In this document: in pieces, positions 1,857 through 24,814 of the stretch | Layout: the number at the start of each line of letters is the position of its first letter | How positions within the stretch are numbered: the stretch's first letter is position 1 | Source of the DNA: Spirosoma validum | GTDB lineage: Bacteria; Bacteroidota; Bacteroidia; Cytophagales; Spirosomataceae | DNA length: 64,000 nt | Reading direction: 5' to 3' | Assembly (NCBI RefSeq): GCF_014699035.1 | Contig: NZ_JACXAA010000007.1 | Location: 124,001-188,000, forward strand | The notes under the pieces: generated by a model | Seen by the model: only the letters and a program-made list of their open reading frames with translations | The model's database searches: none | Told to the model about the DNA's origin: nothing | Made by a program: the position numbers and the translations under genes

Positions 1857-1877
1857 GTTTTATAGGGATAGGATTTT

Positions 1878-1903
1878 GTAGAGACGCAACTATGTGTCTC
1901 TAC
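1878..1903. repeat. Short palindrome GTAGAGAC...GTCTCTAC between isomerase and oxidoreductase genes
   Basis: Arms 1878-1888 and 1893-1903 pair over 11 bases with one G-T wobble and a four-base loop. GTAGAGACGCA-type palindromes are scattered through many Bacteroidota and cyanobacterial genomes. Here it fills most of the 48-bp gap, so it may also shape the mRNA between the two cistrons. Confidence 0.7.
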
Positions 1904-1904
1904 A

Positions 1905-2942: not shown

Positions 2943-2975
2943 GAAGGTATTATGGTTTAAGGTTTTACTTGTGCC

Positions 2976-3069
2976 GTCGGTTACTATAACCGACAAGTGA
3001 GGTTTCTTAAAACCGGGTCTGATTACTCAGTTCGGTTTTAAGAATTGCAACGGCGAACCGTCCTCACTT
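2976..3069. repeat. Nested palindromes between cupin and isomerase genes
   Basis: Three perfect inverted pairs are packed into 94 bases: GTCGGTT/AACCGAC (2976-2982, 2988-2994), AAGTGAGG/CCTCACTT (2995-3002, 3062-3069) and, inside the latter, TTCTTAAAACCG/CGGTTTTAAGAA (3004-3015, 3033-3044). The TTCTTAA core resembles the palindrome at 20789-20877, so the two may belong to one dispersed family. Confidence 0.7.
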
Positions 3070-3099
3070 ATCAAATTTAAGAATCCAACACCACTCAGT

Positions 3100-4368: not shown

Positions 4369-4415
4369 GATTGTTAAGATTTTATAAGATCTTAATCATC
4401 ATAAGAACCGGCAGT

Positions 4416-5528: not shown

Positions 5529-5563
5529 ACGTAGGCTAAGTTCCTTTCAGGGGATTAAGGGGT
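5496..5563. repeat. Inverted repeat overlapping the DUF4432 start codon
   Basis: The 26-base arms 5496-5521 and 5538-5563 match with one mismatch around a 16-base loop. The left arm is inside the annotated N-terminal coding region of the DUF4432 gene and the GTG start is in the loop. In mRNA this hairpin would sequester the start region. Confidence 0.8.
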
Positions 5564-5573
5564 ATTTCATTTT

Positions 5574-6365
5574 CTACATTTCTTTCAGCATCAAATTCCG
5601 GTACTGTACCTTCATGGGTGGTCCTACGTGTACCTGTACACCCAACAGACCTTTCGCTTTGCCGTTGACGGTATCGTCGTCGGTTACGTCGCTCATCAGT
5701 ACGTCGTTGATATAATGCTGTAAGTGATTACCTTTTATAACCAGATGAAACGTATTCCAGTCGCCGGGTTTAATCAAGGTTTTGAGCGAATCCGAGCTGC
5801 CGAGAGAGCCCACTACGTTCATACCCGTCCAAGCATTTCTACTAACCTTCGCCCGAATGGCTTCTGGCGTATTTTCACCAGTATAAGGAGCAATGGTTGT
5901 TTTCTGACCACGATACGCTAACGTGGTCCGTTTACGCTCTTCGTAGTTCTGACCTGTATAGTTATTTTTACCATCGATGTCGGCCTGATAACCGCGTAAC
6001 GCAAACGGTACGTCAGTCAGCTGATCGCTACGGTAATTGATGCCTGAGTTACCAGCTTCTGTAATCTTGAATTCACCTTTAAACTCAAAATCGGCAGGTT
6101 CACCACCTTTCCAGATAATGAAATTATTGGTTTTCAGCAACGTACTAGGTGTAATCTCACCCGTTAAGTTTCCGTCTTCCACCTTCCAGTACGTAGGATC
6201 ACCGTCCCAGCCTTTAAGGGTCTTCCCATCGAAGATCTGTACATAGCCGTCTTTTTTACTCTTCTTACTCTGCCCTACACAAGACGTCTCAATACTACCA
6301 GTCAATATGACCGTCAGCATGAGTCCTATCGGAAGGAATTTGCTATTCATTTTTGTCAGCATCAT
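5574..6365 (-). CDS. DUF1080 family protein (3-keto-disaccharide hydrolase type), exported
   Basis: 263 residues. The N-terminal hydrophobic segment (FLPIGLMLTVILTG) with a Cys at residue 29 suggests export, possibly as a lipoprotein, though the lipobox (IETSC) is poor. Family landmarks are the GWDGDPTYWKVEDGNLTGE strand start, the FEFKGEFKI strand and GNSGINYRS, followed by the later WNTFHLVIKGNHLQHYING-like lectin-fold strands. DUF1080 is a concanavalin-like fold now named 3-keto-disaccharide hydrolase; its members cleave glycosides already oxidised at C3. Its position after a heme dehydrogenase-like protein and before DUF4432, cupin and isomerase genes fits that pathway. The start could also be Met6 (6350). 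Confidence 0.88.
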   Translation of the reverse strand: MMLTKMNSKFLPIGLMLTVILTGSIETSCVGQSKKSKKDGYVQIFDGKTLKGWDGDPTYWKVEDGNLTGEITPSTLLKTNNFIIWKGGEPADFEFKGEFKITEAGNSGINYRSDQLTDVPFALRGYQADIDGKNNYTGQNYEERKRTTLAYRGQKTTIAPYTGENTPEAIRAKVSRNAWTGMNVVGSLGSSDSLKTLIKPGDWNTFHLVIKGNHLQHYINDVLMSDVTDDDTVNGKAKGLLGVQVHVGPPMKVQYRNLMLKEM

Positions 6366-9460: not shown

Positions 9461-10990
9461 TCAGAAGTTTGGCGTTAAAGCGGCTTCAACGGCTGGCAGA
9501 CCGTAGTAGTCATCCAATACAGTAAAGGCATTCGGTGGAGGGACAGCCCCAGCCGGGAAATAGTAATCGGCAGGCTTGGCTTTTACCTTTGCTCCATAGG
9601 CACTAATGATCTCCTTCACGCGGCCTGTTCTGGTCAGATCGAACCAGCGTTTGTTTTCAAAGGCTAACTCAACCCGTCTTTCTTTGAAGATAGCTTCCCG
9701 CATAGTGGCCTGCGACGATGCTGTCGTAGCCGCTAGTCCTGCCCGAGCGCGCACTCGATTCAGATACGTAGCAGCCTCACCCGTTCTCCCCTGTTCGTTT
9801 ATGGCTTCAGCCATAAACAGCAACACTTCGGCAAAGCGATAAACGGGCCAGTTCTGACCGGTATTTTGATTCAGCGAGTGCGTCCGTGCGTATTTTTTGA
9901 TATACGGATAGTTTTTTTCGGCTCGGAGACTAGTACTCAAAAAAACGTTTCCAATAGAAATATCTTTCCGTTTATCGCCTGGTTCGTAGGCTTGAATAAG
10001 ATCCAGGGTTGGAATGTTGTTGCTCTCCTGAGATGTAGCCTGTGGGTTCGATGTACCGACAATAGGTTTGATTTCATCCGCTGTAATCGGGGAGGGAAGA
10101 AAGCGGTAAATCTGGTTACCATTATACCCGGCCGAACCTTCCATATACTGAATCTCAAACACCGATTCCTGATTATTCTTGTTTGTGCTGGTGTATGAAA
10201 AGGCGTCGTTGTAATCCGACATCAGCGCGTAGCCATCGTTGGTTATTACGTCTTTCATCTGCGTTTCAACCTGCGCCCATTTTTTCTGGGTCAGATAAAG
10301 ATTTGCCAGCAGCGTTTTCGCGGCTCCCGACGTAACCCGCCCTTGTTCCTGATCTTTTTTGTTAGGCAACAACTTACTTGCTTCCGTGGCGTCCTTTTCG
10401 ATCTGCGCGTAAATTTCCTCCGTCGTCGAAAGTGGTAAGGCAGCATCTTCCCGACCCGTAATAGGTACTAAATGCAGCGGTACTCTGCCAAACAACCGAA
10501 CCAGATCGAAGTAAGCAAAGGCTCTTAGAAAGAGCGCTTGTCCTTTCTGATTATTCTTGTTCGCAGCGCTGGAAAAGGTGATTCCGTCGATGAGTGACAA
10601 AACCTGATTCGCACGGGCAATGATCACGTAATTTAACCGATACTGTACCAACACGTTGTCATTCGCTGTGATTGTTGTGTTTGGTATAGTTCCAGCCGTT
10701 GTTGGAACCGCAAAATCAGCAACGTTTTCGGTTGGGTCAACAGCTCCATAGAGCGTATTCCGGGCATAATACGTGTTGTCGGAGTGCATTTCCTCCAAAA
10801 CCCAGGCCCGCTCGTTATACATCTGCCGAAGCGGTACATAAGCCCCATTAACCGCCTGCTGAAAGTCAGACTCGGTCTTAAAAAACGTTGCCGAACTCAG
10901 CAGTGTTTCGGGCACTACATTTAGAAAATCTTTCGAGCAACTGGTCAGTGCGATTGCTAAAAACCAGGCTGCTATGAATTTACGTTTCAT
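9461..10990 (-). CDS. SusD/RagB family outer-membrane lipoprotein (first pair)
   Basis: 509 residues from the ATG at 10990 (MKRKFIAAW); the frame extends 9 codons upstream without support. A lipoprotein signal ends LTSC (Cys18), followed by the SusD-typical KDFLNVVPE. The body has the TPR-like helical SusD fold with the FLRAFAYFDLVRLFG, AKTLLANLYLTQKKW, VYRFAEVLLFMAEA and LNRVRARAGL landmarks and a C-terminal FKERRVELAFENKRWFDL stretch. It caps the SusC transporter encoded just upstream and binds the glycan at the cell surface. It forms a pair with the 1077-residue SusC protein. Confidence 0.96.
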   Translation of the reverse strand: MKRKFIAAWFLAIALTSCSKDFLNVVPETLLSSATFFKTESDFQQAVNGAYVPLRQMYNERAWVLEEMHSDNTYYARNTLYGAVDPTENVADFAVPTTAGTIPNTTITANDNVLVQYRLNYVIIARANQVLSLIDGITFSSAANKNNQKGQALFLRAFAYFDLVRLFGRVPLHLVPITGREDAALPLSTTEEIYAQIEKDATEASKLLPNKKDQEQGRVTSGAAKTLLANLYLTQKKWAQVETQMKDVITNDGYALMSDYNDAFSYTSTNKNNQESVFEIQYMEGSAGYNGNQIYRFLPSPITADEIKPIVGTSNPQATSQESNNIPTLDLIQAYEPGDKRKDISIGNVFLSTSLRAEKNYPYIKKYARTHSLNQNTGQNWPVYRFAEVLLFMAEAINEQGRTGEAATYLNRVRARAGLAATTASSQATMREAIFKERRVELAFENKRWFDLTRTGRVKEIISAYGAKVKAKPADYYFPAGAVPPPNAFTVLDDYYGLPAVEAALTPNF

Positions 10991-11119
10991 ATAATTCAGT
11001 ATAAGTTTATAGGTCATTAGATTGTCATTCAGTAGTCATTGTTTGTAGCGATAAACAGGATAATGCATCACCACCCAATGACAATTAATGACTACCGATA
11101 ACTATTCATGACACTAGGT

Positions 11120-14100
11120 TTAGAAGTTCAGGTTGACACCAAGCGTATACGTACGTGGCACTGGGTAGTTCGAGAAATCAACGCCCTGACTCAAATTATC
11201 TCCAGGTCCATCGCCAGCTCCATTGCCGCTAGTCTCTGGATTAGGGCCACCCCAGTATTTCGTGAAGATGTACACCTGTTGTACGCTTCCATACAATCGG
11301 GCCGACTTGAAAAACTTGTTCATTGGTCCGAAATTATAGCCCACCGTTATGTTCTTAATGGTGAAAAACGACGCATCGGCCAGGAACTGTGTACTATGCC
11401 AGTCGCGCTCGACTCCCGTATAATTTCCGCCATTGTTCGTTGCGCCGAACATACCCGCTCCTGGGGTGATCACATTGGTCGCTACGCTGGTCGGATTACC
11501 GCCAACATTGACGATGGTGTTTTGAACGCGGAAACGGTCTTTTACACCTTCAACCATGTTAAATACAGCATCCAGATTGGCCGTGCTATATAAGTGGCGC
11601 ACCCACAACTGATTTCCATAGGAGCCAGAACCCGTAATTGAGAAATCGAAGTTGCCGTATTTCAGATCGTTGGTAATTCCATAGGTAAATTTCGGGAATG
11701 GGCTGCCAATAATTGTGCGGTCATCCACATCACCACCGTTCGTAATAACGCCATCGCCGTTCAGATCTTTAAACTTAATGGTACCGATAGCCGAACGTCC
11801 TGGAATAACGGGTGACGTTCTGAGTTCTTCAGCACTCTGATAATACCCTTCCTTGACCAAACCATAGAATTGGCCGAAGGGCTTACCGACCTGCGTAATG
11901 TGGAAGCCCGTACCACCATATACCCGGTCAATACCCGGAGCGAGCGAGACAACCAGATTTCGGTTAAACGAGATGTTGGCGTTGGTCGTCCATTTCAGTC
12001 TTCCCGTTGTATTTTTGGTCGTCAGCGAGAATTCATGTCCCCAGAACTTAATTTCACCAATGTTATCCGAGAAGAAACTAAATCCCGATTCCTGTGGAAT
12101 CTGCACATTATAGAGCAGATTTGTCGTACGTTTTGTATAGAAATCGTAGATGAACTGGATACGGTCATTGAATAGACCCAAATCAAGGCCAGCATCAAAC
12201 TGTTTGGTTGTTTCCCAGCCTAAGTTTGGATTAGCCAATGACGTAACAACAGAACCTGTAGCCACATTACTGCCAAAAACCGCATTCGTTGTGTTGTTCA
12301 CCAGAGCATAGGACGTATAGTTACCAATATTGTTGTTACCGATTACGCCGTAACTGGCCCGGATTTTAGCAAATGAGATCTGCTGAATCGGTTTGAGAAA
12401 TTCTTCATCCGAAACAACCCAGCCAACCGAAGCTGATGGGAACGTACCAAACTGGTTGTTCGCGCCAAATCGGGACGAACCATCGGCCCGGACGGCTGCG
12501 GTGAATAAATACTTGCCTTTGTAGTTATACGTCAGACGGGACAGGTAGGAAGTTAGTGTCCATTGATTGATGCCATTTAACGTACCGCCCCGATTTATAT
12601 TGAGCGCTCCCTGAATGGTTGGCAATCGATCATCGGTATACGTATCGGCCTGAATACGATTGAACTCCTGCCGATAAAACTGGTTCGTAAAACCAGCCAG
12701 CAGTTCAAAATTGTGATCGCTAAAGCTGCGGGTATAGGTTGCCAGGTTTTCGTTCAGCCAGGACGTATTTTCCAAACCCTGCCGAATCGAAACAGCTGTG
12801 GTTGGGATTGGTACGTTAATAGCACTGGTTGCCGTTGACGGGTTAAAGAAGAAGAATTTAGAGTTTTGGTACTCTATGTTCATGGTCGACCGGAGGGTTA
12901 GTCCCGTGATCGGCCGGTATTGCACATAAGCATTGGCCAGCAGGTTTGTATTCTTGGTTTCGTTGACCAACTCGCTGGCGGCTCGCACCCAGTTCGGATA
13001 GGAGAAAATATTACCTGTATTATCTGGCAGTTTATTAACCTTGGTCAGTTCGCCGTTAGCGTCATAAATTGGATAGATTGGCCACGTATGCAGTGCGTTG
13101 AACAGAATCCCGGTACCCCGGTCACCATCGGTTCGGGGCGTGTTGTCGAACACGTACGAGGGTGCTACGTTAAAGCCAACCGTTACCCGATCCGATATGT
13201 TATAGTTTGAGTTCAGACGCAGCGAGTACCGTTTATATTTATTGTTCAGTACCACCCCATCCTGACTGAATATACCGGCTACCAATGACGTATTGGCTTT
13301 GCCTGTATTGTTGGAAACACTCAGGTTATAACTCTGAATGGGTGCTACACGCAACAGCGCATCGTACCAGTCGTTATTTTTCCCCTCATACTGTGCGGGA
13401 TTCTGAAATATTTCCGGCACGGCCTGCCCCTGATCTTCGTAGTATTCTTTCTTAAACTGAGCAAATTGTACAGCGTTCAGCATTTTTACGCGACCTCGTA
13501 CGGGTACCTTCTGCACACCTGCAAACGCGCTGAAACTAATGTTTGTCTGACCAGGTTTGCCTTTTTTCGTAGTGATCAGCACAACTCCGTTGGCCGCCCG
13601 CGAACCATACAACGATGTTGAAGCGGCATCTTTCAGCACCGATAGATCCTCAATTTCATCGGGGTTAAGCTGGGCAATGTTCCCCGTTATCGGGAAACCA
13701 TCGACTACATAAAGCGGGTCACTACCCGCCGAAACCGATACCTGCCCCCGAATACGGATGGAAATTCCCTGACCAGGCTTACCCGTAGCCTGGTTAATCT
13801 GAACACCCGCTAACCGTCCCTGCAGTTTCTGACCAATCTGCGAAACCGGCAAATCCTTGATTTCCTGTGCACTTACCGTCTGAACGGCACCCGTTATTTC
13901 CTTTTTCAGCTGACTACCGTAGCCAACCACAACGACTTCATTCAGTGTCTGATCGTCTGGCGCCAGCGTGACCGTCAGCGTAGCCTGACCGCCAATAACG
14001 ACTTCTTTACTCGCGTAGCCAACAAAGCTAAAAACCAACGTTGATTGGGCACTTGGTGCATTGAGCCGGAAACTGCCCGAAGCGTCGGTTGTCGTTCCCT

Positions 14101-14353
14101 GCGTGGTCCCTTTAACAACTACACTTACGCCCGGCAGTCCAGACCCTTTCTCATCAATCACTTTTCCCGACACTGATACGTCCGCAGACAGGGTGTTTAC
14201 GTGCAATTGTTCCGGTTTGGGAATGTGCAAAGCCAGTAACTGGCCGTTAGTAGTCTTAGTCTCCTTCTGTAGAATTGGCTTAAGTTCCTGGGCAAAGCTG
14301 GGGAATGAGCCTGCCATCATACTTAGCGCTGCTAACTGATAGAGTCGTTTCAT
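11120..14353 (-). CDS. SusC/RagA family TonB-linked outer membrane transporter (first)
   Basis: 1077 residues: signal peptide MKRLYQLAALSMMAGS...FAQ, a carboxypeptidase-D-like domain (VSGKVIDEKGSGLPGVSVVVKG, about 60-135, split here only for description), the TonB-box-like region TLNEVVVVGYG, a plug with IRIRGQVSV and DPLYVVDGFPI, and a long beta-barrel ending in LNF. It imports oligosaccharides with its SusD partner using TonB energy. It is clearly paralogous to the protein at 26444-29674: both share the N-terminal PILQKET stretch and the same carboxypeptidase-D-like domain. Its upstream DNA has an element also found before the second susC. Confidence 0.96.
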   Translation of the reverse strand: MKRLYQLAALSMMAGSFPSFAQELKPILQKETKTTNGQLLALHIPKPEQLHVNTLSADVSVSGKVIDEKGSGLPGVSVVVKGTTQGTTTDASGSFRLNAPSAQSTLVFSFVGYASKEVVIGGQATLTVTLAPDDQTLNEVVVVGYGSQLKKEITGAVQTVSAQEIKDLPVSQIGQKLQGRLAGVQINQATGKPGQGISIRIRGQVSVSAGSDPLYVVDGFPITGNIAQLNPDEIEDLSVLKDAASTSLYGSRAANGVVLITTKKGKPGQTNISFSAFAGVQKVPVRGRVKMLNAVQFAQFKKEYYEDQGQAVPEIFQNPAQYEGKNNDWYDALLRVAPIQSYNLSVSNNTGKANTSLVAGIFSQDGVVLNNKYKRYSLRLNSNYNISDRVTVGFNVAPSYVFDNTPRTDGDRGTGILFNALHTWPIYPIYDANGELTKVNKLPDNTGNIFSYPNWVRAASELVNETKNTNLLANAYVQYRPITGLTLRSTMNIEYQNSKFFFFNPSTATSAINVPIPTTAVSIRQGLENTSWLNENLATYTRSFSDHNFELLAGFTNQFYRQEFNRIQADTYTDDRLPTIQGALNINRGGTLNGINQWTLTSYLSRLTYNYKGKYLFTAAVRADGSSRFGANNQFGTFPSASVGWVVSDEEFLKPIQQISFAKIRASYGVIGNNNIGNYTSYALVNNTTNAVFGSNVATGSVVTSLANPNLGWETTKQFDAGLDLGLFNDRIQFIYDFYTKRTTNLLYNVQIPQESGFSFFSDNIGEIKFWGHEFSLTTKNTTGRLKWTTNANISFNRNLVVSLAPGIDRVYGGTGFHITQVGKPFGQFYGLVKEGYYQSAEELRTSPVIPGRSAIGTIKFKDLNGDGVITNGGDVDDRTIIGSPFPKFTYGITNDLKYGNFDFSITGSGSYGNQLWVRHLYSTANLDAVFNMVEGVKDRFRVQNTIVNVGGNPTSVATNVITPGAGMFGATNNGGNYTGVERDWHSTQFLADASFFTIKNITVGYNFGPMNKFFKSARLYGSVQQVYIFTKYWGGPNPETSGNGAGDGPGDNLSQGVDFSNYPVPRTYTLGVNLNF

Positions 14354-14447
14354 GAATTTTAGAGTAAAAGAGATAGGATTGTAGAAGTAAACAGGTTAGA
14401 GAAAAAGCCAATCGAATACCCAAATATTACCAGCTTTGGTCCGGGAA

Positions 14448-14510
14448 CTTTCCCATACCTACCCAAGTTTGGCACTATTCGGATAATTTTCTTGTAATTT
14501 TCAACAATAT
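14448..14510 (-). promoter_or_regulatory. Conserved element upstream of the first susC
   Basis: This 63-bp stretch matches 29759-29820, upstream of the other susC, at about 85 percent of positions by hand alignment, with long identical blocks (ATACCTACCCA, TTTGGCA, ATAATTTTCTTG, AATTTTCAA on the + strand). It lies 95-157 bases before the susC start. The rest of the two leaders does not align, so this looks like a shared promoter or operator rather than recent duplication of the whole region. Confidence 0.75.
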
Positions 14511-14572: not shown

Positions 14573-16777
14573 TTAATTGATAAACACCTCGTCGACCAGC
14601 AGTAGGGCCTGCTTGCCTTTATTACCATGCCATTCGGGAAGCTTAGGCACTGGTTTTGCAACGATTTTCAGGTAAGAAACGGTATGCGGTTTGAACGTAC
14701 ATCCGATTGCTTTCAAAACCGGATCGCTTTTTTTGATGGGCATTTCGGGATGCGCAGTGGCGATCAATTTCAGGTTATCCCGCTTATCACCGCCCCATAT
14801 TTCAATCTCAGCCGGAGGAAAGATGCCCGTTTCTGGCTCAATCATTGTCCGTAAATCAACAGACGTAACGTTAACGGGCTTTTTAAACTCGGAAACCAGC
14901 ACCAGATCATTTTTTCGGACACCTGCCCAGTTATTAGCCCAGGCCGGGCTGTTAGCATTAAACGTACCCAGCTTGTGATCAAAAAACGTATTGGCTCCCT
15001 CCGCCTGATGCACCGGATTGAGCGGCATTAGTAAGTTCGCACTATCGGGTTTATAACCACTTTTATAGTAATTGAACGTAACGACAGGGCTACTGAACCA
15101 GCCTGATTTATAAGCCTTTGCCTTAATTATTGTGCTTCCGGTAATAATCGTTTTATCGTTATTAATAGGCGAATGAATACTATCAGGATCCGTTCCGTCT
15201 GTTGTGTAGCGAATTTCAACACCTTTTATAGGATGTCTCAACTGAATGGGCGTTGACTGTGCGAAAATGGCCGTATTCTTTAACTGGGGCGGATTCAGCC
15301 GGATAGGTTCGCTTTTCTCACCGTCAAATCCGGCAATGAACTGAATACGGGGATTCGCTTTTTGCAGTTGGTGAATCTCTTCGTCAGTTAATCTGGTTTC
15401 CCAAAGAGCAACGGTTTTCAGCTTTTTGAACGTACCAATTTGGTTTCTCAGATCGGCATATTTAACGGCTGTACCCGACAGGGCCAAACTTTTCAGATGA
15501 TTTAACGACGCCAGTTGGTTTAATTCTTTACCCGTTATATCGGTAAAATTGACATCCAATTTTTCCAGATTCTCGAACTGGCCTATGTACTTCAGGTCAG
15601 CATCTTTCACAGGCATCTTATTCAGATTCAGATAAACAACCTGACTTTTGATCGGACTTAATTCCTGTAATTTCTCTGGTGAATACGTGGCTTTGTTGTA
15701 CAGATTAACGGCCAAAGCGGGGGACTCCTTCGCCAGTGGGGCAATGGTTCGGTAATCAGTGTTCAGTTTTTTGACGGTTTCCTCGTCGGCAGCGTCGAAG
15801 GCAAATCCGGGTTCAGCCTGTTTAGTTGGCTTGAATAGAGCAACCGCCATGATACGTAGCGAATCGGTAGCTGGAAGATCAACCACTTTCTTAGTAAACT
15901 CAGCACGCCCTTTCACCCACAATGCCAAAAGCCTTATTTCGGCTTCGGTTAGTTGCGCTTTCCCCGAAGGTGGCATATGTTTCTTTTCGTCTACCGGTAG
16001 GTGTATACGTTTGAGCAATAAGCTCACATCAGGATCACCCGCTACGTATAATTTTCCACTCTTCCCTCCTTTTCGAATCGCTTCAGCATCGGTCAGTGCC
16101 AGTTCGCCTTTCAATTTCTCCGGATTATGGCAACTGGTACATTTCTGCTCAAAAATGGGTTTGATCACGTCGTTGAAAACAAGCGCCTGTTGAAGATCGA
16201 CCGGTGCTGATTTCAGCTGATGCGTAACGGGCGCCAGTATAAAATCCTCGCCATGCGTAATAACCGAACCGTAATGTCCCGCACCAATCAGAACGATACC
16301 CATCAACACAGCTCCCGTTTGAGCGATAGCGGGCGAGTACCAGGTCTTTCTTCGGCTCCAGTATATAAGTGCCGCCAGATAGAAAGTCAGTACACCTGTC
16401 CATTTATGCCATTGTACGACTGCGCCCGTGTAACCATCTTCTCTCGACAGAAACAAACCCATAATGACCGTAACGGCGGCCAGCAAAGCGCCTACTAAGA
16501 GCAGATTCGTTGAAAACGTCCGGTAAAATTCCGAAATGTCGGGGATGCGACTTTCCGACCTATTAATTGTATTCGCTTTGTTGAAGCGAAAGACTTCCAT
16601 CACCACCGCCAGCAGCAGAATGACGATTGGAAAATGCAAAATTAACGGGTGTAGGCGCCCAATGGGTTGCAACCAGACAGGAATTACTATTTTGCTTTCA
16701 AATAGTAGCAAAACTAAAATAAACACTGCCGAAGCAAACAACGCCTGTTCTGCCAGTCCAGCTAACTTTTTCTGCAT
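14573..16777 (-). CDS. DUF2231 / PSCyt1 cytochrome c / leucine-rich / chitobiase-C-like membrane protein
   Basis: 734 residues. A first transmembrane helix (about 11-27) is followed by a four-helix DUF2231-type membrane domain (35-175; IGRLHPLILHFPIVI, HKWTGVL, GHYGSVITHGED). A planctomycete-type cytochrome c comes next, with CTSCH at 213-217 and MPPSGKAQLTEAEIRLL after it. Then come leucine-rich-like segments (about 375-470, NLEKLDVNFTDITG), a chitobiase C-terminal-like fold (GVEIRYTTDGTDPDS, about 515) and a C-terminal beta domain. It probably anchors an electron-transfer and ligand-binding module in the inner membrane facing the periplasm. It is encoded just upstream of the first susC and just downstream of a DUF1501 gene. 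Confidence 0.83.
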   Translation of the reverse strand: MQKKLAGLAEQALFASAVFILVLLLFESKIVIPVWLQPIGRLHPLILHFPIVILLLAVVMEVFRFNKANTINRSESRIPDISEFYRTFSTNLLLVGALLAAVTVIMGLFLSREDGYTGAVVQWHKWTGVLTFYLAALIYWSRRKTWYSPAIAQTGAVLMGIVLIGAGHYGSVITHGEDFILAPVTHQLKSAPVDLQQALVFNDVIKPIFEQKCTSCHNPEKLKGELALTDAEAIRKGGKSGKLYVAGDPDVSLLLKRIHLPVDEKKHMPPSGKAQLTEAEIRLLALWVKGRAEFTKKVVDLPATDSLRIMAVALFKPTKQAEPGFAFDAADEETVKKLNTDYRTIAPLAKESPALAVNLYNKATYSPEKLQELSPIKSQVVYLNLNKMPVKDADLKYIGQFENLEKLDVNFTDITGKELNQLASLNHLKSLALSGTAVKYADLRNQIGTFKKLKTVALWETRLTDEEIHQLQKANPRIQFIAGFDGEKSEPIRLNPPQLKNTAIFAQSTPIQLRHPIKGVEIRYTTDGTDPDSIHSPINNDKTIITGSTIIKAKAYKSGWFSSPVVTFNYYKSGYKPDSANLLMPLNPVHQAEGANTFFDHKLGTFNANSPAWANNWAGVRKNDLVLVSEFKKPVNVTSVDLRTMIEPETGIFPPAEIEIWGGDKRDNLKLIATAHPEMPIKKSDPVLKAIGCTFKPHTVSYLKIVAKPVPKLPEWHGNKGKQALLLVDEVFIN

Positions 16778-16790
16778 CTTGTGTAACGCG

Positions 16791-16833
16791 GGTGGGAGCC
16801 CGCGATTGCGTATTAAAATCGCGGGTTCCCACC
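16791..16833. repeat. 17-bp inverted repeat between DUF1501 and cytochrome genes
   Basis: Arms 16791-16807 (GGTGGGAGCCCGCGATT) and 16817-16833 pair with one mismatch around a nine-base loop. This is another GC-rich dispersed palindrome filling the gap. Confidence 0.8.
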
Positions 16834-16860
16834 GTAACGGCGGCCCCGCTTTACAACAGC

Positions 16861-18315
16861 TTACGCTATAATATCGTGAACAACTTTCCCGGATACGTCG
16901 GTTAACCGATACCGGCGGCCCAGATGTTTGAAAATCAGCTTTTCGTGGTTGAGCCCTAGCTGGTGTAGAACTGTAGCCTGGAAATCGTGGACGTGCACCG
17001 GATTACTGGCAATGTTATAACCCATTTCGTCCGTTTCGCCATACACGATACCGGGTTTGATCCCACCGCCCGCCATCCAGATTGTAAAGCAACGGGGATG
17101 GTGGTCTCTACCGTAATTTTCCTTAGTTAATTTGCCCTGCGTGTAGCTGGTACGTCCAAATTCACCACCCCAGATCACCAGCGTTTCGTCTAGCAATCCC
17201 CGCTGTTTGAGATCGGTAACCAGTGCCGCCGATGCCTGATCGACATCTTTAGCCTGCTTCGCTATTTCGAACGGCAGATTTCCGTGCTGATCCCAGCCCT
17301 GATGATACAACTGAACAAAACGAACCCCGTTCTCAGATAATTTACGAGCCAGCAAACAGTTAGCCGCAAACGTCCCAGGCACTAAGCAGTCTGGACCGTA
17401 GAGCTTAATGATGTCGTCCGGCTCTTTCGACAAATCCATTACGTCTGGTACAGCGGTTTGCATCCGGTACGCCATTTCGTATTGTTTTACTTTGGCCATA
17501 ATTTCCGGATCACCGAATTCCTGATAGCCCATTTCATTCAGTTGGGCCAGATTGTCGAGCATGTCACGGCGGTCCTGCCGGTTCATGCCTTCGGGGTCAC
17601 GCAGGTAAAGTACAGGGTCTTCACCTTTGCTAAACTGAACCCCCTGGTGGATGGAATCCAGAAAACCATTCGACCATAATTTAGAGTAGACACCCTGCCC
17701 ATTGCCAATACCCCGCGAAAGCAGTACGGTAAAGTTGGGTAAATTTTTATTTTCATTGCCAAGTCCGTAGCTCAGCCAGGAACCCATACTCGGCCGATTA
17801 CCCTGTTGCGAGCCCGTTTGCAGAAACGTCAGCGCCGGGTCGTGGTTGATAGCTTCGGTATACATCGATTTCACAATGCACAGATCATCGACGATTTTAG
17901 CCGTGTATGGAAACAGATCACTTACCCACGCCCGCGACTGGCCGTATTGTTTAAAATCAACGAAGGAACCCACCAGTGGAAACTCCTTCTGATTGGCGGT
18001 CATACCCGTTAATCGTTGCGTTCCTCGTACGGATGGCGGTATTTCCTGCCCCCACATCTCCCGCAGCTTCGGCTTGTAATCGAACAATTCCTGCTGCGAG
18101 GGCGCCCCGTTCTGAAATAAGTAAATGACTCGTTTGGCTTTGGGCGCAAAATGCGGCATTCCGGGCGTAAATCCCTCTTCATCAGCACCGTTTCCCCGAA
18201 ACAAATCAGGAATCAGCAGCGATCCTAAAGCCGCACTTCCCAGCCCCAAACTTAGTCTGGACAGGAAGCGACGTCGGTTAAAATTAAATCCGTGTTCTAA
18301 GATTTCTTTTTCCAT
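16861..18315 (-). CDS. DUF1501 domain protein, Tat-exported (second copy)
   Basis: 484 residues with a twin-arginine signal (NRRRFLSRLSLGLGSAALGSLL) and the DUF1501 core, a relative of the alkaline phosphatase/sulfatase fold: APSQQELFDYKP, GSWLSYGLGNENKNLP, GPDCLVPGTFAANCLLARKL, RFVQLYHQGWDQHGNLP, VIWGGEFGRTSYTQG, GRDHHPRCFTIWMAGGGIKPG. The paired DH/HxxDH-type residues suggest a metal site. DUF1501 genes nearly always sit next to PSD1 cytochrome genes; here it directly follows the one at 18414-20759. Its reaction is not established. Confidence 0.92.
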   Translation of the reverse strand: MEKEILEHGFNFNRRRFLSRLSLGLGSAALGSLLIPDLFRGNGADEEGFTPGMPHFAPKAKRVIYLFQNGAPSQQELFDYKPKLREMWGQEIPPSVRGTQRLTGMTANQKEFPLVGSFVDFKQYGQSRAWVSDLFPYTAKIVDDLCIVKSMYTEAINHDPALTFLQTGSQQGNRPSMGSWLSYGLGNENKNLPNFTVLLSRGIGNGQGVYSKLWSNGFLDSIHQGVQFSKGEDPVLYLRDPEGMNRQDRRDMLDNLAQLNEMGYQEFGDPEIMAKVKQYEMAYRMQTAVPDVMDLSKEPDDIIKLYGPDCLVPGTFAANCLLARKLSENGVRFVQLYHQGWDQHGNLPFEIAKQAKDVDQASAALVTDLKQRGLLDETLVIWGGEFGRTSYTQGKLTKENYGRDHHPRCFTIWMAGGGIKPGIVYGETDEMGYNIASNPVHVHDFQATVLHQLGLNHEKLIFKHLGRRYRLTDVSGKVVHDIIA

Positions 18316-18356
18316 AATACGTATCCACGGACCGGGCCGCGTTTCTTAGCCTATTT

Positions 18357-18412
18357 GGTGCCACGGACTTTAGTCCGTGAATTCAGAAAAACGGACTAAA
18401 GTCCGTGGCACC
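18357..18412. repeat. Perfect 22-bp inverted repeat before the PSD1 stop codon
   Basis: Arms 18357-18378 and 18391-18412 are perfect complements (GGTGCCACGGACTTTAGTCC... ) with a 12-base loop, ending one base from the PSD1 gene end at 18414. Each arm is itself partly palindromic (ACGGACT/AGTCCGT), so several hairpins can form. Confidence 0.9.
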
Positions 18413-18413
18413 A

Positions 18414-20759
18414 TTACGACTTTGTAATGGTTTCTTCCAGATTATAGATCGTTGATACAATCCGCATCATAGCCGCTAGTTGTACTTTATCGACTGTTGC
18501 GGGAATCGGATATTCACCAACGGCCAACGCTTTCTCCGCGCGTGACTTGTTAAGTTGTTTCAACTCCTTTTCGTAATACGTCGTTAGTACAGCAGTTTCT
18601 TTTTGATTGGGTTTCCGACTTACAATCAGCCGGAAAGCTTTATCGATCTTATCGGAAACGGCGCTATTCTCCTGTAGCAGTTTAGCCGCCAGTACGCGCG
18701 ACGCTTCCAGCACAGTCGGGTCGTTGAGCATGATCAGTGCCTGCAAAGGTGTGTTGGTTTTCAATCGTCTTACTTCGCAAAGGTCGCGGTTGCTGGCATC
18801 GAAAATAGCCATTGAAGGCGGAGGAACGGTACGCTTAATGAGCGTGTACATGCCCCGGCGATACAACTTGGCGCCATGATCCTGTACGTACATAGACAAC
18901 AATCCTCTGCCCGACGTAGCGCCTTCCCACAGCCCCGGCGGCTGATACGGTTTTACACTAGGCCCGCCAATCGTTCGGTTCAACAAGCCACTACTACTCA
19001 GAACAATATCCCGAACAAACTCAGCATCCACCCGGTAGCGCGGCCCACGAGCCAAATATTTATTATCCGGATCAGCCTGCAATTTCTCCGGACTAATCAC
19101 CGCCGACTGCCGATACGTAGCAGACGTAACCATCTGTTTCACTAGTCGTTTGATATCCCAGCCGTGGCTCATGAAATCGACCGCCAGCCAGTCCAGTAAT
19201 TCAGGATGGGATGGTAGTTCGCCCTGCATACCGAAGTCACCGGGGGTTTTGACGATACCTTTTCCGAAAAACTCCTGCCACAACTGATTCACGTACACTC
19301 GTGCCGTCAGCGGATTCTGTTTGTCAAACATCCACTTTGTCAGACCCAGTCGATTCTTCGGATAGCCTTCATTAAAGGGCAAAATAGCATTTGGCGTACC
19401 GGGTTGCACTTCATCGCCAGGCGCGTCATATACACCTCGTTTCAGGATAAACGTTTTCCGGGTGGTATCCAGATCGGTCATCACCGAGACAATTAATTTG
19501 TTAGTATCCCGCTTACTGACAAACGACAAAATATCTTTTACATCCTCGTCGCAGATTTCCATCAGTGGCTTCTTGGCATACGTATCGGGCCCGCCAATGA
19601 CGGACTCAATTCCGACTTCCTTTACGTTGTTGAAAAACGCAAAGAGCTTGTAATACTCTTTCTGTGAAAACGGATCGTATTTATGGTCATGGCAATGTGC
19701 GCATTCCATCGTTACGCCCAACAATCCTTTCCCAAACAAATCCGTGCGATCTGTTACGTAGGAGATGCGATATTCTTCCGGAATGACGCCCCCTTCTTCG
19801 GTTATTTTATGATTACGGTTGAAACCCGTCGCCAGCAACTGCTCTTTGTCTGGTTTACCAGGCCCGCTCCAACCTTTCGGACTGGACAGGAAATCGCCCG
19901 CCAGCTGCCAGGTGACGAAATCATTGTAATGCATGTTTTTGTTGAAGGCATGAATCACCCAGTCACGCCAGGGCCATTGGGTTCGGTAGCCATCATCCTG
20001 GTATCCATGTGAATCGGCATAACGGGCTATATCGAGCCAGTGAATAGCCATTTTTTCGCCATACGCCGGATTGCGAAGCAACAGATCGACCGCTTTTTCA
20101 TAGGCATTGGCACTTTTATCGGCCATGAACTGATCCATTAGCGCCAGACTTGGTGGCAATCCGGTCAGGTCCAGGCTGAGTCGTTTCAATAACCGTTCCT
20201 TATCCGCTTCTTCGTTTGGTTTTAAGCCTTTCTGCTCCTGTTTCTGTAAAATGAAATAGTCAATTTCATTCTTTGGCCAATCTTTTTGATCAACCTTAGG
20301 CAAAGCAGGTTTCTTTGGCGCGACGAAAGCCCAGTGTTTTTCGTAAGGTGCCCCCTGCCTGATCCACTTTTCGATCAGCTTAATTTCTCGACCGGACAAT
20401 TTCAGTCCTGAGTTGACGGGCGGCATTAGCGTTGACGTATCCTGAGACGTAATGCGCAAAAACACTTCCGACAATTCAGGTTTTCCGGCGACCAAAGCAT
20501 GCGCCTTCGGGTGTTCTTTCAGGGCTTTAAATGCACTCTCGGGCACGTCGAGCCGTAAACCTGCTTCCCGTTTGTTGGCATCCGGGCCATGGCAGGCCGA
20601 GCATTTGTCCGATAGAATGGGCCTGATATCGAAGTTGTAACTGACCATGTCCGGCAGTTTTTCTTCTTCGGTCTGATTTGACGAATGGTTGGTACAAGCC
20701 TGTACGAACCAGACTGTGCCGGCCGTCATGATAAGTAGATAATACGATAGTTTCCTCAT
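18414..20759 (-). CDS. PSD1/cytochrome c (DUF1549-DUF1553) lipoprotein
   Basis: 781 residues. A signal with a plausible lipobox (FVQAC, Cys22) leads into a planctomycete-type cytochrome c (PSCyt1; CSACH 53-57, then STLMPPVNSGLKLSGREIKLIEKWI). Next comes DUF1549 (RLLKRLSLDLTGLPPS..., HWLDIARYADSHGYQDD), with a second CxxCH motif in AHCHDHKYDPFS, and DUF1553 (NPLTARVYVNQLWQEFFGKG, CEVRRLKTNTPLQALIMLNDP). These domains form the classic PSD1 architecture of Planctomycetes. The gene is 132 bases from the end of the first DUF1501 gene and is followed by the second. Function is unproven; extracytoplasmic redox chemistry on glycans is the usual inference. Confidence 0.92.
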   Translation of the reverse strand: MRKLSYYLLIMTAGTVWFVQACTNHSSNQTEEEKLPDMVSYNFDIRPILSDKCSACHGPDANKREAGLRLDVPESAFKALKEHPKAHALVAGKPELSEVFLRITSQDTSTLMPPVNSGLKLSGREIKLIEKWIRQGAPYEKHWAFVAPKKPALPKVDQKDWPKNEIDYFILQKQEQKGLKPNEEADKERLLKRLSLDLTGLPPSLALMDQFMADKSANAYEKAVDLLLRNPAYGEKMAIHWLDIARYADSHGYQDDGYRTQWPWRDWVIHAFNKNMHYNDFVTWQLAGDFLSSPKGWSGPGKPDKEQLLATGFNRNHKITEEGGVIPEEYRISYVTDRTDLFGKGLLGVTMECAHCHDHKYDPFSQKEYYKLFAFFNNVKEVGIESVIGGPDTYAKKPLMEICDEDVKDILSFVSKRDTNKLIVSVMTDLDTTRKTFILKRGVYDAPGDEVQPGTPNAILPFNEGYPKNRLGLTKWMFDKQNPLTARVYVNQLWQEFFGKGIVKTPGDFGMQGELPSHPELLDWLAVDFMSHGWDIKRLVKQMVTSATYRQSAVISPEKLQADPDNKYLARGPRYRVDAEFVRDIVLSSSGLLNRTIGGPSVKPYQPPGLWEGATSGRGLLSMYVQDHGAKLYRRGMYTLIKRTVPPPSMAIFDASNRDLCEVRRLKTNTPLQALIMLNDPTVLEASRVLAAKLLQENSAVSDKIDKAFRLIVSRKPNQKETAVLTTYYEKELKQLNKSRAEKALAVGEYPIPATVDKVQLAAMMRIVSTIYNLEETITKS

Positions 20760-20788
20760 CGTAATATGTAGTATTTTATATTGAAGTA

Positions 20789-20877
20789 GTGATGTCAGGT
20801 TCTTAAACCTGACCAGAGCGGTTTCTCAAAACCGCGTTATCCCGTTTTATTCAGTCGGGCTTAAGAACCGACATCAC
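20789..20877. repeat. Palindrome with GGTTCTTAA core between DUF1501 and PSD1 genes
   Basis: Outer arms 20789-20813 and 20854-20877 share GTGATGTC, GGTTCTTAA and TGAC/GTC with a one-base indel. A smaller hairpin GCGGTTT/AAACCGC lies inside. The core is related to the palindrome at 2995-3069. Confidence 0.75.
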
Positions 20878-20891
20878 AGCATAGATTTACT

Positions 20892-22343
20892 TCATACCAA
20901 AAGATCCATCACGGGTTTAGCTACTCCGTCGGGCGTAATGTAGAAAGGCCGTTTTTCAACTTCATAATGTGTGTCAGATGCAATGCCCAGCGCGTGATAG
21001 ATCGTTTGGTGGATTCCCTCGATATGTATCGGCTTTTCGATGGTCTTGCAGGGACGCTCGTCGGCAGTTTTGCCGTAAACGAATCCTTTTTTAATACCTC
21101 CGCCAAACATCAGCACCGAACAGCCATCTGTAAAATGACGGTGCATACCATAAAATTTCGGATCTGTGAGAATATCAGGCTGTTTAACTTGTTCCTGTAC
21201 CTTGGCATCTGGTCGGCCTTCCACCATCATATCCCGACTGAACTCACTGGCCAGAATAATCATGGTACGGTCCAGATGACCCGTTTTTTCCAGATCCAGA
21301 ATCAGTTGCGCAATCGGGCCATCAATCTGGCACTTCATATCTTCCAGACGTGAGTGACCGTTTTCGTGCGTATCCCAACCTTTGAAGGGCTCGTATTCCG
21401 TCGTCACGCTGATAAATCGCGCACCCTGTTCGGTGAGTCGACGGGCTAATAAACAACCCAATCCAAACCGACCAGTATTATATCGCTCGTAGATGTGCTT
21501 CGGTTCGGTGCTCAGATCAAACGCTTTCGCTTCCGGCGAATTCAAAAGCCGGTACGCCTGCTCCATCGACCGACGTAATGATTCTTTCTGATAATCGCTA
21601 CCAAACTCACCCACCGGACTGTTGCTGATCAGTTCGTTATAGAGTTGATTCCGACGCTCAAATCGACGTGCATCCATGCCAATCGGCGGACGAACGCTTT
21701 CCAGTCCCTGACTGGGATCGGGAATAAAAAACGGGCCGAATTCATTGCCCAGAAAACCCGCCGTGTGGAAGGCTTTCAACTCTTCGGCCTCTCCTACCGT
21801 AAACCGCTGCCCAATGTCGATGAAGGCCGGAATAACCGGATTTTTCGGACCTAACTCTTTGGCAATCCAGGAGCCGAGGTGCGGAGCCGCAACAGTCTGG
21901 GGTGGTTCGTAACTTGTATGCCAGTGGTACTGATGGCGCGAGTGCAGGATATGACCCATGTCGGCCGCTACGTAGGAACGGATCAACGTACCCCGGTCCA
22001 TTACTTTACCAATAGACTGAAGCCCATCTGAAAAATGAATGCCGTCCAAGGCTGTTGGCATCGATTTGAACGTACTGAGCACCCGGTTACCTTCCATACC
22101 CGTTTCATAGGGTGTGTAGCGTTTGGGATCAAACGTTTCGGTATGTGCCATGCCACCAGCCATCCAGAGCAGAATAACTGTATCAGCCGTTCCGCGCACA
22201 TTAGCCTGTTTTTTGGCTTTATCTTTTTCAGCACCTGAGCAGCCCGAGAGTAAGCCGGGTATAGGTGCGCCAGCCGCCAGTGCCGCTAACGTAGCCGCGC
22301 TTGTTTTCTGGAGAAACTCCCGCCGATTCCATCTGTTTATCAT
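20892..22343 (-). CDS. DUF1501 domain protein, Tat lipoprotein-like (first copy)
   Basis: 483 residues from the ATG at 22343 (MINRWNRREFLQKTS); the open frame upstream (to 22457) reads through intergenic DNA and overlaps the previous gene. The Tat signal RREFLQK is followed by a lipobox-like LLSGC. DUF1501 landmarks are TVILLWMAGGMAHTETFDPK, GSWIAKELGPKNPVIP, FGLGCLLARRL, RFISVTTEYEPFKGWDTHENG, MIILASEFSRDM and YGMHRHFTDGCSVLMFGGG. It follows the DUF2231-PSD1 gene by 110 bases. With the other PSD1/DUF1501 pair it makes two tandem, diverged modules. Its enzymatic role is not known. Confidence 0.92.
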   Translation of the reverse strand: MINRWNRREFLQKTSAATLAALAAGAPIPGLLSGCSGAEKDKAKKQANVRGTADTVILLWMAGGMAHTETFDPKRYTPYETGMEGNRVLSTFKSMPTALDGIHFSDGLQSIGKVMDRGTLIRSYVAADMGHILHSRHQYHWHTSYEPPQTVAAPHLGSWIAKELGPKNPVIPAFIDIGQRFTVGEAEELKAFHTAGFLGNEFGPFFIPDPSQGLESVRPPIGMDARRFERRNQLYNELISNSPVGEFGSDYQKESLRRSMEQAYRLLNSPEAKAFDLSTEPKHIYERYNTGRFGLGCLLARRLTEQGARFISVTTEYEPFKGWDTHENGHSRLEDMKCQIDGPIAQLILDLEKTGHLDRTMIILASEFSRDMMVEGRPDAKVQEQVKQPDILTDPKFYGMHRHFTDGCSVLMFGGGIKKGFVYGKTADERPCKTIEKPIHIEGIHQTIYHALGIASDTHYEVEKRPFYITPDGVAKPVMDLLV

Positions 22344-22453
22344 AGCGTTACGATGTTTAACTGTTTGAAGAAAGAGTAAAGACTCAAGATGAAAGACTAC
22401 CAGTCTGCATCTATATACTTTCTTTCGTCTTACATCTTTCTTCCCTATCTGAC

Positions 22454-24814
22454 TCAATAAATCAACTGAAATTCCGGGTGGAGCGAAATCGCCCAGACCA
22501 GATCTTCTATACCTTCTACACTAGGCTGGACGCCAACAATCTTCTGAGCAACAATCATTTCTTTAGGCTTTGGATCACGACCCAACGATTTTCGATAAAG
22601 TTCTTTGACCAGCAGATCCGACGACGGGTATTTTGCTTTCCATTGTTCCGCTCCCCGCTTAAGGGCTTCGTTAAACGTAGTACCATTCGTTAGTTCCAGG
22701 GCCTGTAACAAATTTGCCTGCGAAGTCCGACTGGTGCTGACCGTTTCGCGGTTAGGCCGACCCAATGCCGTCAGAAACGGATCGTTTTTCACCAGCGACG
22801 CGCGAGGAAAAGCTATCTCTTTCTGAATCGTTTTCGGCAACATTTTTACGATCGACGTATCCTGGTAGATCGGATTGAAGGCCAGGCTAACTGCATCCGC
22901 AAATTGTTCGGCCGTAAGCCGACGCCGTACCATACCCTCAAACACGTAGGTGGGAGCCATTACCAGATCCGCATCCTTAACGCCAACCGAGGGCAATTGA
23001 TAGGTTTTAGACGTAGTAATCGTATAGATCAATTTTTTGATGTCGTACCCATTCTGCACGAAATCATATGCCAGCCAATCCAGTAAGTCCTGGCTCCACG
23101 GCTCATTGTCCATCGCATCGACGGGTTCGACAATGCCTCGGCCCATGAGTTGCGCCCAGATTCGGTTAACCAGCGTGCGATACAGGCGGCCATCTTTCGG
23201 TTGAACCAGAAAATCAGCCAGTTCACGAAGGCGTTTTTCGGTCGGCGCATCGACACTGATCTGACCTAATTCCTTAAATAAAACCTGACGGCCAGCCATT
23301 TTACCCGTAGGCTTATCGCAACGGTTAATTTCTAACGTAGTATCAGCGAACACGTTGGCGAAGGCATAGGCATCCGCCAGTTTCCAGTCGCTGATAAAAC
23401 TATCGTGGCAGGAAGCGCATTTGAGGTTCAGTCCCAGTAATACCTGCGCTACGTTCTGAGCCGCCTGCATTTCCGTTCGCTGACTCGAATTGATCGTACC
23501 GCGCCATTTAATCCCTTTAATAAAACCGGACGATTCTTTGGTGGGGCTAATCAACTCCCGGACAAACCAGTTGTATGGTTTATTCTTCTTCAGTGACGCA
23601 TATAGCCATTGCGTAATGTCGAATCGTCCACCCGTAATATATCCCGTTCCACTGTAATCATTCCGTAACGCGTCGTTCCAGAACGTGATCCAATGCTGGG
23701 CATAATCGCCGTTTCGGCTGAGTAATTCCTTCACTAAAGCCTCTCGCTTATCAGGGCGCGTATCAGCCTCGAATGCCTGAATCTTAGCGGGTGTTGGTAG
23801 TAATCCAATGATGTCTAAATAGACCCGGCGCATGTAGGTCCGGTCGTCAACGACGCTTTTCCATTCAATCTTGTTTTTGTGGAAATAGACATTGACCAAC
23901 CGATCAATTGGATTGTTGATATCAACCGTAGCAGCTGGCAGAATGGGTAAACGAGGTTCCAGCGCAGCCACCCGGTAAATGCTCTTTTCGGCACCACTGG
24001 GCCAGGGTGCCCCGGCTTTTATCCATAAGGAAAGAAGTGCTACTTCGTTTTCGGTGAGCCGCTTACCTTTAGTCGGCATCGCTTCTTTATCGTCGGCGGG
24101 TAACGTAATGCGTCGGATGATCTCGCTGTCTTCCGGATGACCGGCTTTCAGGATAGCGCCGTGCTTGCCGCCTTTCATGATCAGGGCCTTGCTATCCAGC
24201 CGCAGCTCGCCTTTGGTTTTTGTAGCACTGTGGCAACTATAGCAGTTGTGCGCCAGAATCGAACGAATTTCCAGATTCAGCTCCTGTACTTGCTTAGCTG
24301 TCAATTGCTTACTCGTGTTCAGACTCGCAAACATTGCATTATTTGCGGGCGAGTTTGCTACATTGGGCTGATCCCCAAAAGGCAATACACTGCTGATGTA
24401 ATCTTCACCGTGGGTTAGCAGGGCACCGTAATGACCCGCCACACTAACCCCAACGACGGTTAGAATCAATAAACTTCGGTATAGATTTACCCGTCCCGAA
24501 CGTAGCGCGATTACGGTTAGAATAGCCAGAACCATTGTCGCCAGACCTGACCACTGGTGGACCAGAACCCCTTTACCCGCGTAGTCTTCCTGATTGACCA
24601 GCACCAGGCCGAGTCCAGCTGCCAGAATTGCACTGATGGTGCCAATCCAGAGCATGGCATTAATGCCCGCCCTCAGCTCCGTTGATTTACGAAACCAGCT
24701 GATAACTTCCAGTACTAAAGCAACGCAAAGTAAGCCAACCGGAAAGTGAACAATAAGGGGATGTAAGCGCCCCAGAAACTGCCAAAGCCAAAATGATTCT
24801 GCTACGATTGTCAC
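22454..24814 (-). CDS. DUF2231-cytochrome c-PSD1 (DUF1549/DUF1553) membrane fusion
   Basis: 786 residues. A DUF2231-type membrane domain (about 10-140; LGRLHPLIVHFPVGLLC, VHQWSGLATM, GHYGALLTHGEDY) is followed by a PSCyt1 heme domain with CYSCH at 191-195 and MPTKGKRLTENEVALLSLWIKAG. DUF1549 (YMRRVYLDIIGLLPTPA, HWITFWNDALRNDYSGTG) with a second heme-like CASCH motif, and DUF1553 (RLYRTLVNRIWAQLMGRG) come next. The membrane and cytochrome part matches the N-terminus of the 734-residue protein at 14573-16777, so one module has been reused. It is the first gene after the second SusCD pair and is probably cotranscribed with it. Confidence 0.9.
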   Translation of the reverse strand: MTIVAESFWLWQFLGRLHPLIVHFPVGLLCVALVLEVISWFRKSTELRAGINAMLWIGTISAILAAGLGLVLVNQEDYAGKGVLVHQWSGLATMVLAILTVIALRSGRVNLYRSLLILTVVGVSVAGHYGALLTHGEDYISSVLPFGDQPNVANSPANNAMFASLNTSKQLTAKQVQELNLEIRSILAHNCYSCHSATKTKGELRLDSKALIMKGGKHGAILKAGHPEDSEIIRRITLPADDKEAMPTKGKRLTENEVALLSLWIKAGAPWPSGAEKSIYRVAALEPRLPILPAATVDINNPIDRLVNVYFHKNKIEWKSVVDDRTYMRRVYLDIIGLLPTPAKIQAFEADTRPDKREALVKELLSRNGDYAQHWITFWNDALRNDYSGTGYITGGRFDITQWLYASLKKNKPYNWFVRELISPTKESSGFIKGIKWRGTINSSQRTEMQAAQNVAQVLLGLNLKCASCHDSFISDWKLADAYAFANVFADTTLEINRCDKPTGKMAGRQVLFKELGQISVDAPTEKRLRELADFLVQPKDGRLYRTLVNRIWAQLMGRGIVEPVDAMDNEPWSQDLLDWLAYDFVQNGYDIKKLIYTITTSKTYQLPSVGVKDADLVMAPTYVFEGMVRRRLTAEQFADAVSLAFNPIYQDTSIVKMLPKTIQKEIAFPRASLVKNDPFLTALGRPNRETVSTSRTSQANLLQALELTNGTTFNEALKRGAEQWKAKYPSSDLLVKELYRKSLGRDPKPKEMIVAQKIVGVQPSVEGIEDLVWAISLHPEFQLIY

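Follow-up and report, generated by a model that had tools for sequence, protein, structure and literature searches.

Promoters of Bacteroidota follow a consensus of −33 and −7 boxes. In B. subtilis, AraR joins a GntR wHTH to a LacI-like sensor, and its operators are palindromic. The described L-rhamnose regulators RhaR and RhaS belong to the AraC, DeoR and LacI families, and GntR is not mentioned in the main text of that source (PMC3870299). Bacteroides RhaR is an AraC-family protein, while FucR (BT1272) and ManR (BT2103) are sugar regulators of the GntR family (PMC3878776). Known GntR operators are mostly palindromes, with direct-repeat operators known for MocR types, NanR, FarR and NagQ (PMC4494728). 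In the titles and abstract beginnings of the open-access papers that our searches listed, we found no GntR-family rhamnose regulator of Bacteroidota.

Here, we analysed a 64,000-nucleotide stretch of Spirosoma validum DNA (the window), in which two SusCD units are preceded by a common repeat. This repeat is very probably an operator of the window's own GntR protein, a reading that holds for activation and repression alike, and the regulon is probably that of L-rhamnose, which an earlier note on this DNA had not foreseen.

The repeat upstream of susC1 and susC2

The best ungapped local alignment between the two susC upstream regions covers 59 bp with 52 identities (88%), and its score of 83 compares with a maximum of 32 among 2000 dinucleotide-shuffled pairs. 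The shared element that the earlier note had seen upstream of both susC genes is therefore real, and the flanks outside the alignment do not match, again as it had described. Both copies lie upstream of the start codon, with the near end 93 bp (copy 1) or 83 bp (copy 2) from the ATG. The genes behind them are distant paralogues, SusC1 and SusC2 being 39% identical and SusD1 and SusD2 38%. The repeats (from the local alignment) and the genes (assigned by Pfam) are as follows.

14446-14504, minus strand: repeat copy 1
29757-29815, minus strand: repeat copy 2
11120-14353, minus strand: susC1, 1077 aa, ATG 95 bp from core 1
9461-11017, minus strand: susD1, 518 aa
26444-29674, minus strand: susC2, 1076 aa, ATG 85 bp from core 2
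24936-26432, minus strand: susD2, 498 aa

A DNA search of the 8.22-Mb genome (39 contigs) with the copy-1 intergenic region gave two strong matches, which are the two copies, and a next match at E = 1.5; a scan with the core 20-mer at up to 3 mismatches returned the same two copies, the reversed control giving 1 match. Neither search of the genome yielded a third strong copy. The weak third match of the DNA search (C37:194982) was set aside as chance, as the stretch has no core and no susC start follows it.

What is constrained across Spirosoma is a core of 18 bp, TRGGNNRGTRTRGGAAAG, made of two TRGG halves at a 10-bp pitch. The element of about 62 bp that had been put forward as a signal thus stands as regards its place before both susC genes, while the signal in common is about 18 bp of the 62. 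Core 2 sits in the divergent gap between susC2 and gntR.

14448-14465, minus strand: predicted operator core 1, TGGGTAGGTATGGGAAAG, halves TGGG-N6-TGGG, zero mismatches to the genus pattern, top profile match
29759-29776, minus strand: predicted operator core 2, TGGGTAGGTATAGGAAAG, halves TGGG-N6-TAGG, zero mismatches, second profile match
14466-14504, minus strand: A/T-rich upstream part of copy 1, 85% identical to that of copy 2
29777-29815, minus strand: A/T-rich upstream part of copy 2

When the gntR-side site and the susC1 site of the same genome are compared, the core is 72–94% alike in 8/8 genomes, and the 39 bp upstream of it are 85% alike here and 33–64% alike in seven relatives. Because relatives with both sites share mainly the core, the long match seems to exceed functional need; it probably reflects recent homogenisation or shared ancestry, and the A/T-rich part is perhaps an UP-like element outside the minimal operator. 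The whole 59-bp match could also be the leftover of a duplicated susC promoter, through paralogy or gene conversion, with no regulatory meaning. The upstream likeness limited to this genome would agree with that, as would the finding that copy 2 is as similar to the susC1-type sites of relatives as copy 1 is. However, the core is kept between the two positions in all eight genomes while the remainder drifts, and it also stands before unrelated genes, so we consider this explanation very unlikely.

When 30 aligned sites are inspected by eye, the core is tandemly repeated and lacks the palindromic NyGTNxACNy layout; dyads in the element were likewise assessed by eye alone. One AT-rich dyad, around ATTATTCTAATAAT, was dropped as a GntR site, since the pooled rha, lut and GH78 sites contain no such conserved block.

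Candidate targets of the core and the linked GntR family

Of 36 genomes of the genus, 16 contain a match to the copy-2 region at E<=0.01; these matches lie at 18 places, two of them those of the window. All except one of these places lie upstream of susC, recognised by N-terminal sequence (17/18); L015 lies upstream of a PSCyt-type gene, and a divergent GntR gene of 338 or 347 aa adjoins 10 of the 18. The core on the gntR side faces rhaEW (L092, L093), susC2 (L172, L175, L176, L177), susC1 (L170, L171, L174) or a PSCyt gene (L101), and the core before susC1 persists while the partner gene on the gntR side varies. A core that stays in place while the genes downstream of it change is what shared control by one regulator predicts.

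The genes rhaEW are present in 36/36 genus genomes, at 43 places. Of the 30 places examined, 14 have the core upstream with no more than 1 mismatch, 6 (this genome included) with 2 and 1 with 3, and 9 lack it, whereas a core with at most 1 mismatch occurs in 9/4800 random 420-bp windows. Seven of the nine core-less loci carry the variant CAGGAGAGTACATGA or CAGGAGAGTGCATGA, all of them in genomes with a GntR paralogue at 40–41% identity (365 aa where fetched), which suggests that two GntR paralogues may split the regulon. Upstream of rhaEW in L151-L157, from genomes with that paralogue, we noted a variant with three half-sites, CAGGAGAGTACATGAAGCAGGAG or CAGGAGAGTGCATGACACAGGAG. Another core variant, TAGGAGAGTACAGGAAAG, precedes lut-like genes near a 364-aa paralogue (L100:4776-4793, L105:6597-6614), and in L100 a Glyco_hydro_88-domain gene lies between the core and the paralogue. 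In L102, gntR is flanked by a GH78-like gene on one side and by rhaEW-I-K-T on the other, with cores before the GH78-like gene (2 mismatches), rhaEW (0) and rhaT (1). An exact core before a GH106 alpha-L-rhamnosidase gene (L094:4221-4238) lies 704 kb from gntR on the same contig.

In total, the genus has 42 zero-mismatch matches; the distance to gntR is at most 17 kb for 38 of them and at most 2 kb for 25, a count that is partly circular as the pattern was drawn from susC/gntR loci. Matches with at most 1 mismatch number 117 against 70 in the reversed control, so single weak matches prove little.

For the window's own genome we used a profile, R1, of 30 sites, none of them from this genome and all originally found with a pattern drawn from the window. 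The search gave at least eight matches at E<=10 (150 of 1503 first-look candidates scored), and the window copies rank first and second (3.5e-8 and 1.8e-7). Third comes susC3 (E 1.1e-5), whose operon encodes apiosidase-like, GH2, GH141-plus-rhaM and GH95 proteins, a gene set that we take to recall rhamnogalacturonan-II loci. Its GH141-domain protein (L270:5699-8227) carries the rhaM (L-rhamnose mutarotase) domain at the C-terminus. Further matches precede rhaEW-rhaI-rhaK (E 0.018, weak, with 2 mismatches), an esterase-GH78 operon (E 0.036) and a 6-phosphogluconate-dehydrogenase-like gene (named by eye), or fall in the rhaM/rhaT gap (E 0.51, weaker than the rhaEW site). The susC3, rhaEW and esterase sites were known before R1 was built but left out of it, and the rhaT site is new. 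For at least two of six matches to fall at rha promoters, the probabilities are 1.8e-7 and 8.4e-6, values that rest on the assumed number and size of target promoters. While the earlier note had held that copies at random sites would speak against the element, copies are few and mostly at promoters, with one of the eight listed profile matches inside a coding frame. The operator pattern is thus shared upstream of rha genes, at the rhaEW loci of the genus and, in this genome, at rhaEW, esterase-GH78 and rhaM/rhaT, as an L-rhamnose regulon would have it.

The window itself holds no rha gene that we could identify. Inside its SusCD cluster, the stretches 693-6365 and 14573-24814 encode planctomycete-type PSCyt1/PSD1/DUF1501 proteins, and the same stretches carry 3-keto-disaccharide hydrolase, DUF4432 and Gfo/Idh genes. 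The regulator gene lies beside susC2.

29948-30964, plus strand: gntR, 338 aa, GntR wHTH plus Peripla_BP_3 (LacI-like) sensor (Pfam), predicted core binder

The N-terminal wHTH of its product matches PF00392 (E 1.8e-15, above cut-off), and Pfam places Peripla_BP_3, not a MocR aminotransferase-like domain, at the C-terminus. In NCBIfam, the DNA-binding domain comes closest to PdxR (NF052282, 5e-16), though far short of the cut-off of that model. Searched against solved structures, the HTH matches 4egy, which carries the name arabinose metabolism repressor (E 1.5e-5), as well as closer structures. The genome has no second gene of this kind at E<=1e-40, and homologues are found in 183/200 genomes of the family at E<=1e-60. 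One relative's second copy (G035:C9:30442-31455, 63% identical) contains one in-frame TAG.

Beyond the genus, rhaEW, rhaI, rhaK or rhaT lies near the GntR homologue in 17/20 chosen loci (stretches up to 20 kb), the exceptions without a rha gene being L113, L119 and L124. Among the best 80 loci of a collection-wide scan, 12 of which are short stretches, one of these four genes lies within about 4 kb in 48, and a rha, GH78 or lut gene in 51, leaving 29 with none; seven places are common to both sets. Gene labels come from BLAST to reference proteins, with rhaEW and rhaT above NCBIfam cut-offs and rhaI, rhaK, LutA and LutB matching their models below cut-off. The regulator gene and rha genes are thus co-located across genomes, again as in an L-rhamnose regulon. 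The sole copy, the adjacency and the rha-linked family point to the 338-residue GntR protein, which the earlier note had named for footprinting, as the likely binder; the note's coordinating operator for the two SusCD units likewise gains support from core conservation, profile matches and positions beside gntR.

A related form of the site appears outside Spirosoma. A noisy profile test in distant genera, with Spirosoma loci excluded, placed 18/56 upstream regions above the 95% shuffle threshold and revealed a CATGA form, CATGAYRGTRCATGAYRG, with an equal 18-bp tandem layout. This pattern has 15 exact matches in 15/74 distant GntR loci (80 minus the 6 Spirosoma loci) and none when reversed, in a partly circular test as the pattern was derived from those loci. 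With at most 1 mismatch there are 21 sites in the 74 loci (reversed control 0), 19 of them before rhaT or GH78 and the remaining two before a 104-aa rhaM-like frame (by eye) and an unlabelled frame. In 296 genomes of the phylum, sampled regardless of GntR, exact CATGAYRGTRCATGAYRG has 4 matches (1 for the reversed pattern), two upstream of rhaT-rhaEW with gntR adjacent and two upstream of a GH78 gene; 3 of the 4 are new, as L269 equals locus L258, already used for the pattern. The window's own genome contains no exact CATGA site. Because the TAGGA and CATGA forms are equal in length, register and spacing and mixed forms such as CAGGATAGTGCATGACAG occur, we infer that they belong to one lineage.

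Another transcription factor, for example of AraC type, might instead read the core, with the GntR gene a mere neighbour. AraC-type activators typically have tandem half-sites at the −33 region, and in this genome a gene of AraC type is found about 2 kb beyond rhaK (L090:2388-3287). However, among the 14 largest families listed for 94 GntR-centred loci (seven counted twice), a set of loci biased towards GntR, any further regulator family is limited to 6 loci at most, and gntR lies within 1.5 kb at 2/4 phylum matches. The most frequent unlabelled families of these loci are a rhaM-like protein (15 loci) and an ABC-type protein (7); all others occur in 6 or fewer, including sigma-factor-like and anti-sigma-like families, named by eye, in 6 and 5. 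We therefore regard a different reader of the core as unlikely and retain the GntR protein.

Promoter geometry and the sign of regulation

The earlier note had remarked that the element has no canonical TAnnTTTG box, which is correct for the element itself; just outside it, however, both copies have a −7-like box, at precisely 19 nt downstream of the core.

14421-14428, minus strand: predicted −7 box of the susC1 promoter, AATATTTG, 5 of 6 letters of TAnnTTTG, N19 from the core
29732-29739, minus strand: weak predicted −7 box of the susC2 promoter, CATATTGG, 4 of 6 letters, N19 from the core

For CATATTGG, three further offsets score as well as N19, which makes the start point of susC2 less certain. 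Averaged over 37 collected sites, agreement with TAnnTTTG is highest at exactly 19 nt past the core (4.68 of 6), followed by 3.54 at 18 nt and by 0.86–2.76 at the remaining offsets of 8–39 nt; five or six letters are present at 18–20 nt in 33/37 sites and all six in 11/37. The offset is 19 in rha and GH78 sites, 20 in three lut sites and 18 in L108 and L109, and AATATTTG itself stands at N19 in 16/19 sites of the genus susC/gntR cluster. Two sites depart from this: before susC3, the sole full box lies at 33 nt, with five of six letters matching at 19, and before the esterase gene, 14 nt and 20 nt both give five of six. In the 21 distant CATGA sites, too, the box match is best at 19 nt, averaging 4.1 of 6 letters there and 2.9, the second-highest value, at 18 nt. 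The core end falls at the expected position of the −33 box, which reads AAAG and not TTTG.

Two further features of these promoters were noted. Immediately downstream of the −7 box, susC1 promoters across the genus have another block in common, approximately ActAttcnATTgactTTTt, which in the window spans about 14400-14420 on the minus strand. Between gntR and susC2, and directed at susC2, lies an inverted repeat, GAGTTCGC-N9-GCGAACTC, followed by seven T on the minus strand (29850-29881); it is terminator-like as read by eye, and missing from the inverted-repeat listing, whose loop limit is 8.

The earlier note had also considered an alternative-sigma promoter, and this idea fares badly. With an ECF-type sigma factor, GGAAAG would be the −35 box, and GGAAAG does resemble ECF −35 boxes; the sigma-factor-like genes of the 6/94 loci could be counted in its favour. 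Yet the promoters keep a box of the primary TAnnTTTG type at N19, weak at copy 2 but with all six letters in 11/37 sites, and the upstream half of the repeat would be left unexplained. We consider an ECF promoter extremely improbable.

The sign of regulation is more evenly balanced. The same GntR protein on the same operator could act as a repressor, occluding the promoter until a sugar releases it, and the LacI-like sensor domain, the HTH match to 4egy (besides closer structures) and the overlap of the site with the −33 region are consistent with this. On the other hand, the −7 spacing is stricter than repression needs, both in the 37 sites and in the distant ones, and the −33 position has no TTTG. 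Repression is nearly as likely as activation, and we slightly favour the latter because of the constant geometry and the missing TTTG −33 box.

A candidate L-rhamnose operator compared with known systems

We infer GntR binding, the effector and the regulatory sign from these sequence patterns. Each copy would be a promoter-proximal operator, with the GntR/LacI-like protein of 29948-30964 as its predicted binder. The protein would read the 18-bp tandem repeat as two half-sites of TAGG type spaced by 10 bp, or one turn of the helix; a dimer may sit on one face of the DNA, and the repeat would end at the −33 box position, 19 nt upstream of the −7 box. As the regulator family is L-rhamnose-linked, the protein probably senses L-rhamnose or an intermediate or product of it. 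Such a signal would switch susCD1, susCD2, the rhaEW-rhaI-rhaK operon, rhaM/rhaT and rhamnoglycan operons jointly. The two SusCD units probably import a rhamnose-containing or co-occurring glycoside, and, as a guess, the adjacent genes for a 3-keto-disaccharide hydrolase and Gfo/Idh proteins may point to a pathway via an oxidised glycoside.

More broadly, and with a confidence that falls just short of even, we propose an undescribed, Bacteroidota-wide class of L-rhamnose activators (GntR wHTH plus LacI-like sensor), in which CATGA-N5-CATGA or TAGGA-N5-TAGGA would replace the −33 box at a constant distance of 19 nt from the −7 box and which would have recruited outer-membrane SusCD units in Spirosoma, one of them heading an RG-II-like operon. 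For SusCD units whose substrate is not settled by the local genes, these results put forward a candidate regulator, a defined operator sequence of 18 bp and a predicted signal. They also suggest a promoter layout with a tandem-repeat site in place of the −33 box, and a possible route that ties glycan uptake to deoxy-sugar catabolism in Bacteroidota outside Bacteroides.

The site is an ordinary kind of sugar operator; what is unusual is the tandem layout and a regulator family that we did not find described for L-rhamnose. RhaR and RhaS resemble the proposed system in that their targets are rha genes, rhaEW among them, and in some lineages also genes for rhamnosidases, and the DeoR-family RhaR motifs are direct repeats with 10–11-bp periodicity, close to the 10-bp pitch of the core (PMC3870299); the linked regulator here, in contrast, is of the GntR family. 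FucR and ManR share the GntR family, the catabolism of a deoxyhexose or hexose and the phylum, but, compared by description, they serve another sugar and other targets (PMC3878776). The MocR types PdxR, GabR and TauR are related in that the DNA-binding domain is nearest MocR/PdxR, and direct-repeat operators are common among them, several being activators (PMC4494728, PMC5320631). Unlike them, the protein of the window has a Peripla_BP_3 sensor and no aminotransferase domain, and its predicted half-sites are 10 bp apart. AraR has the same domain order as the window's GntR protein, whose HTH matches 4egy, whereas its operators are palindromic and the sites described here are tandem repeats.
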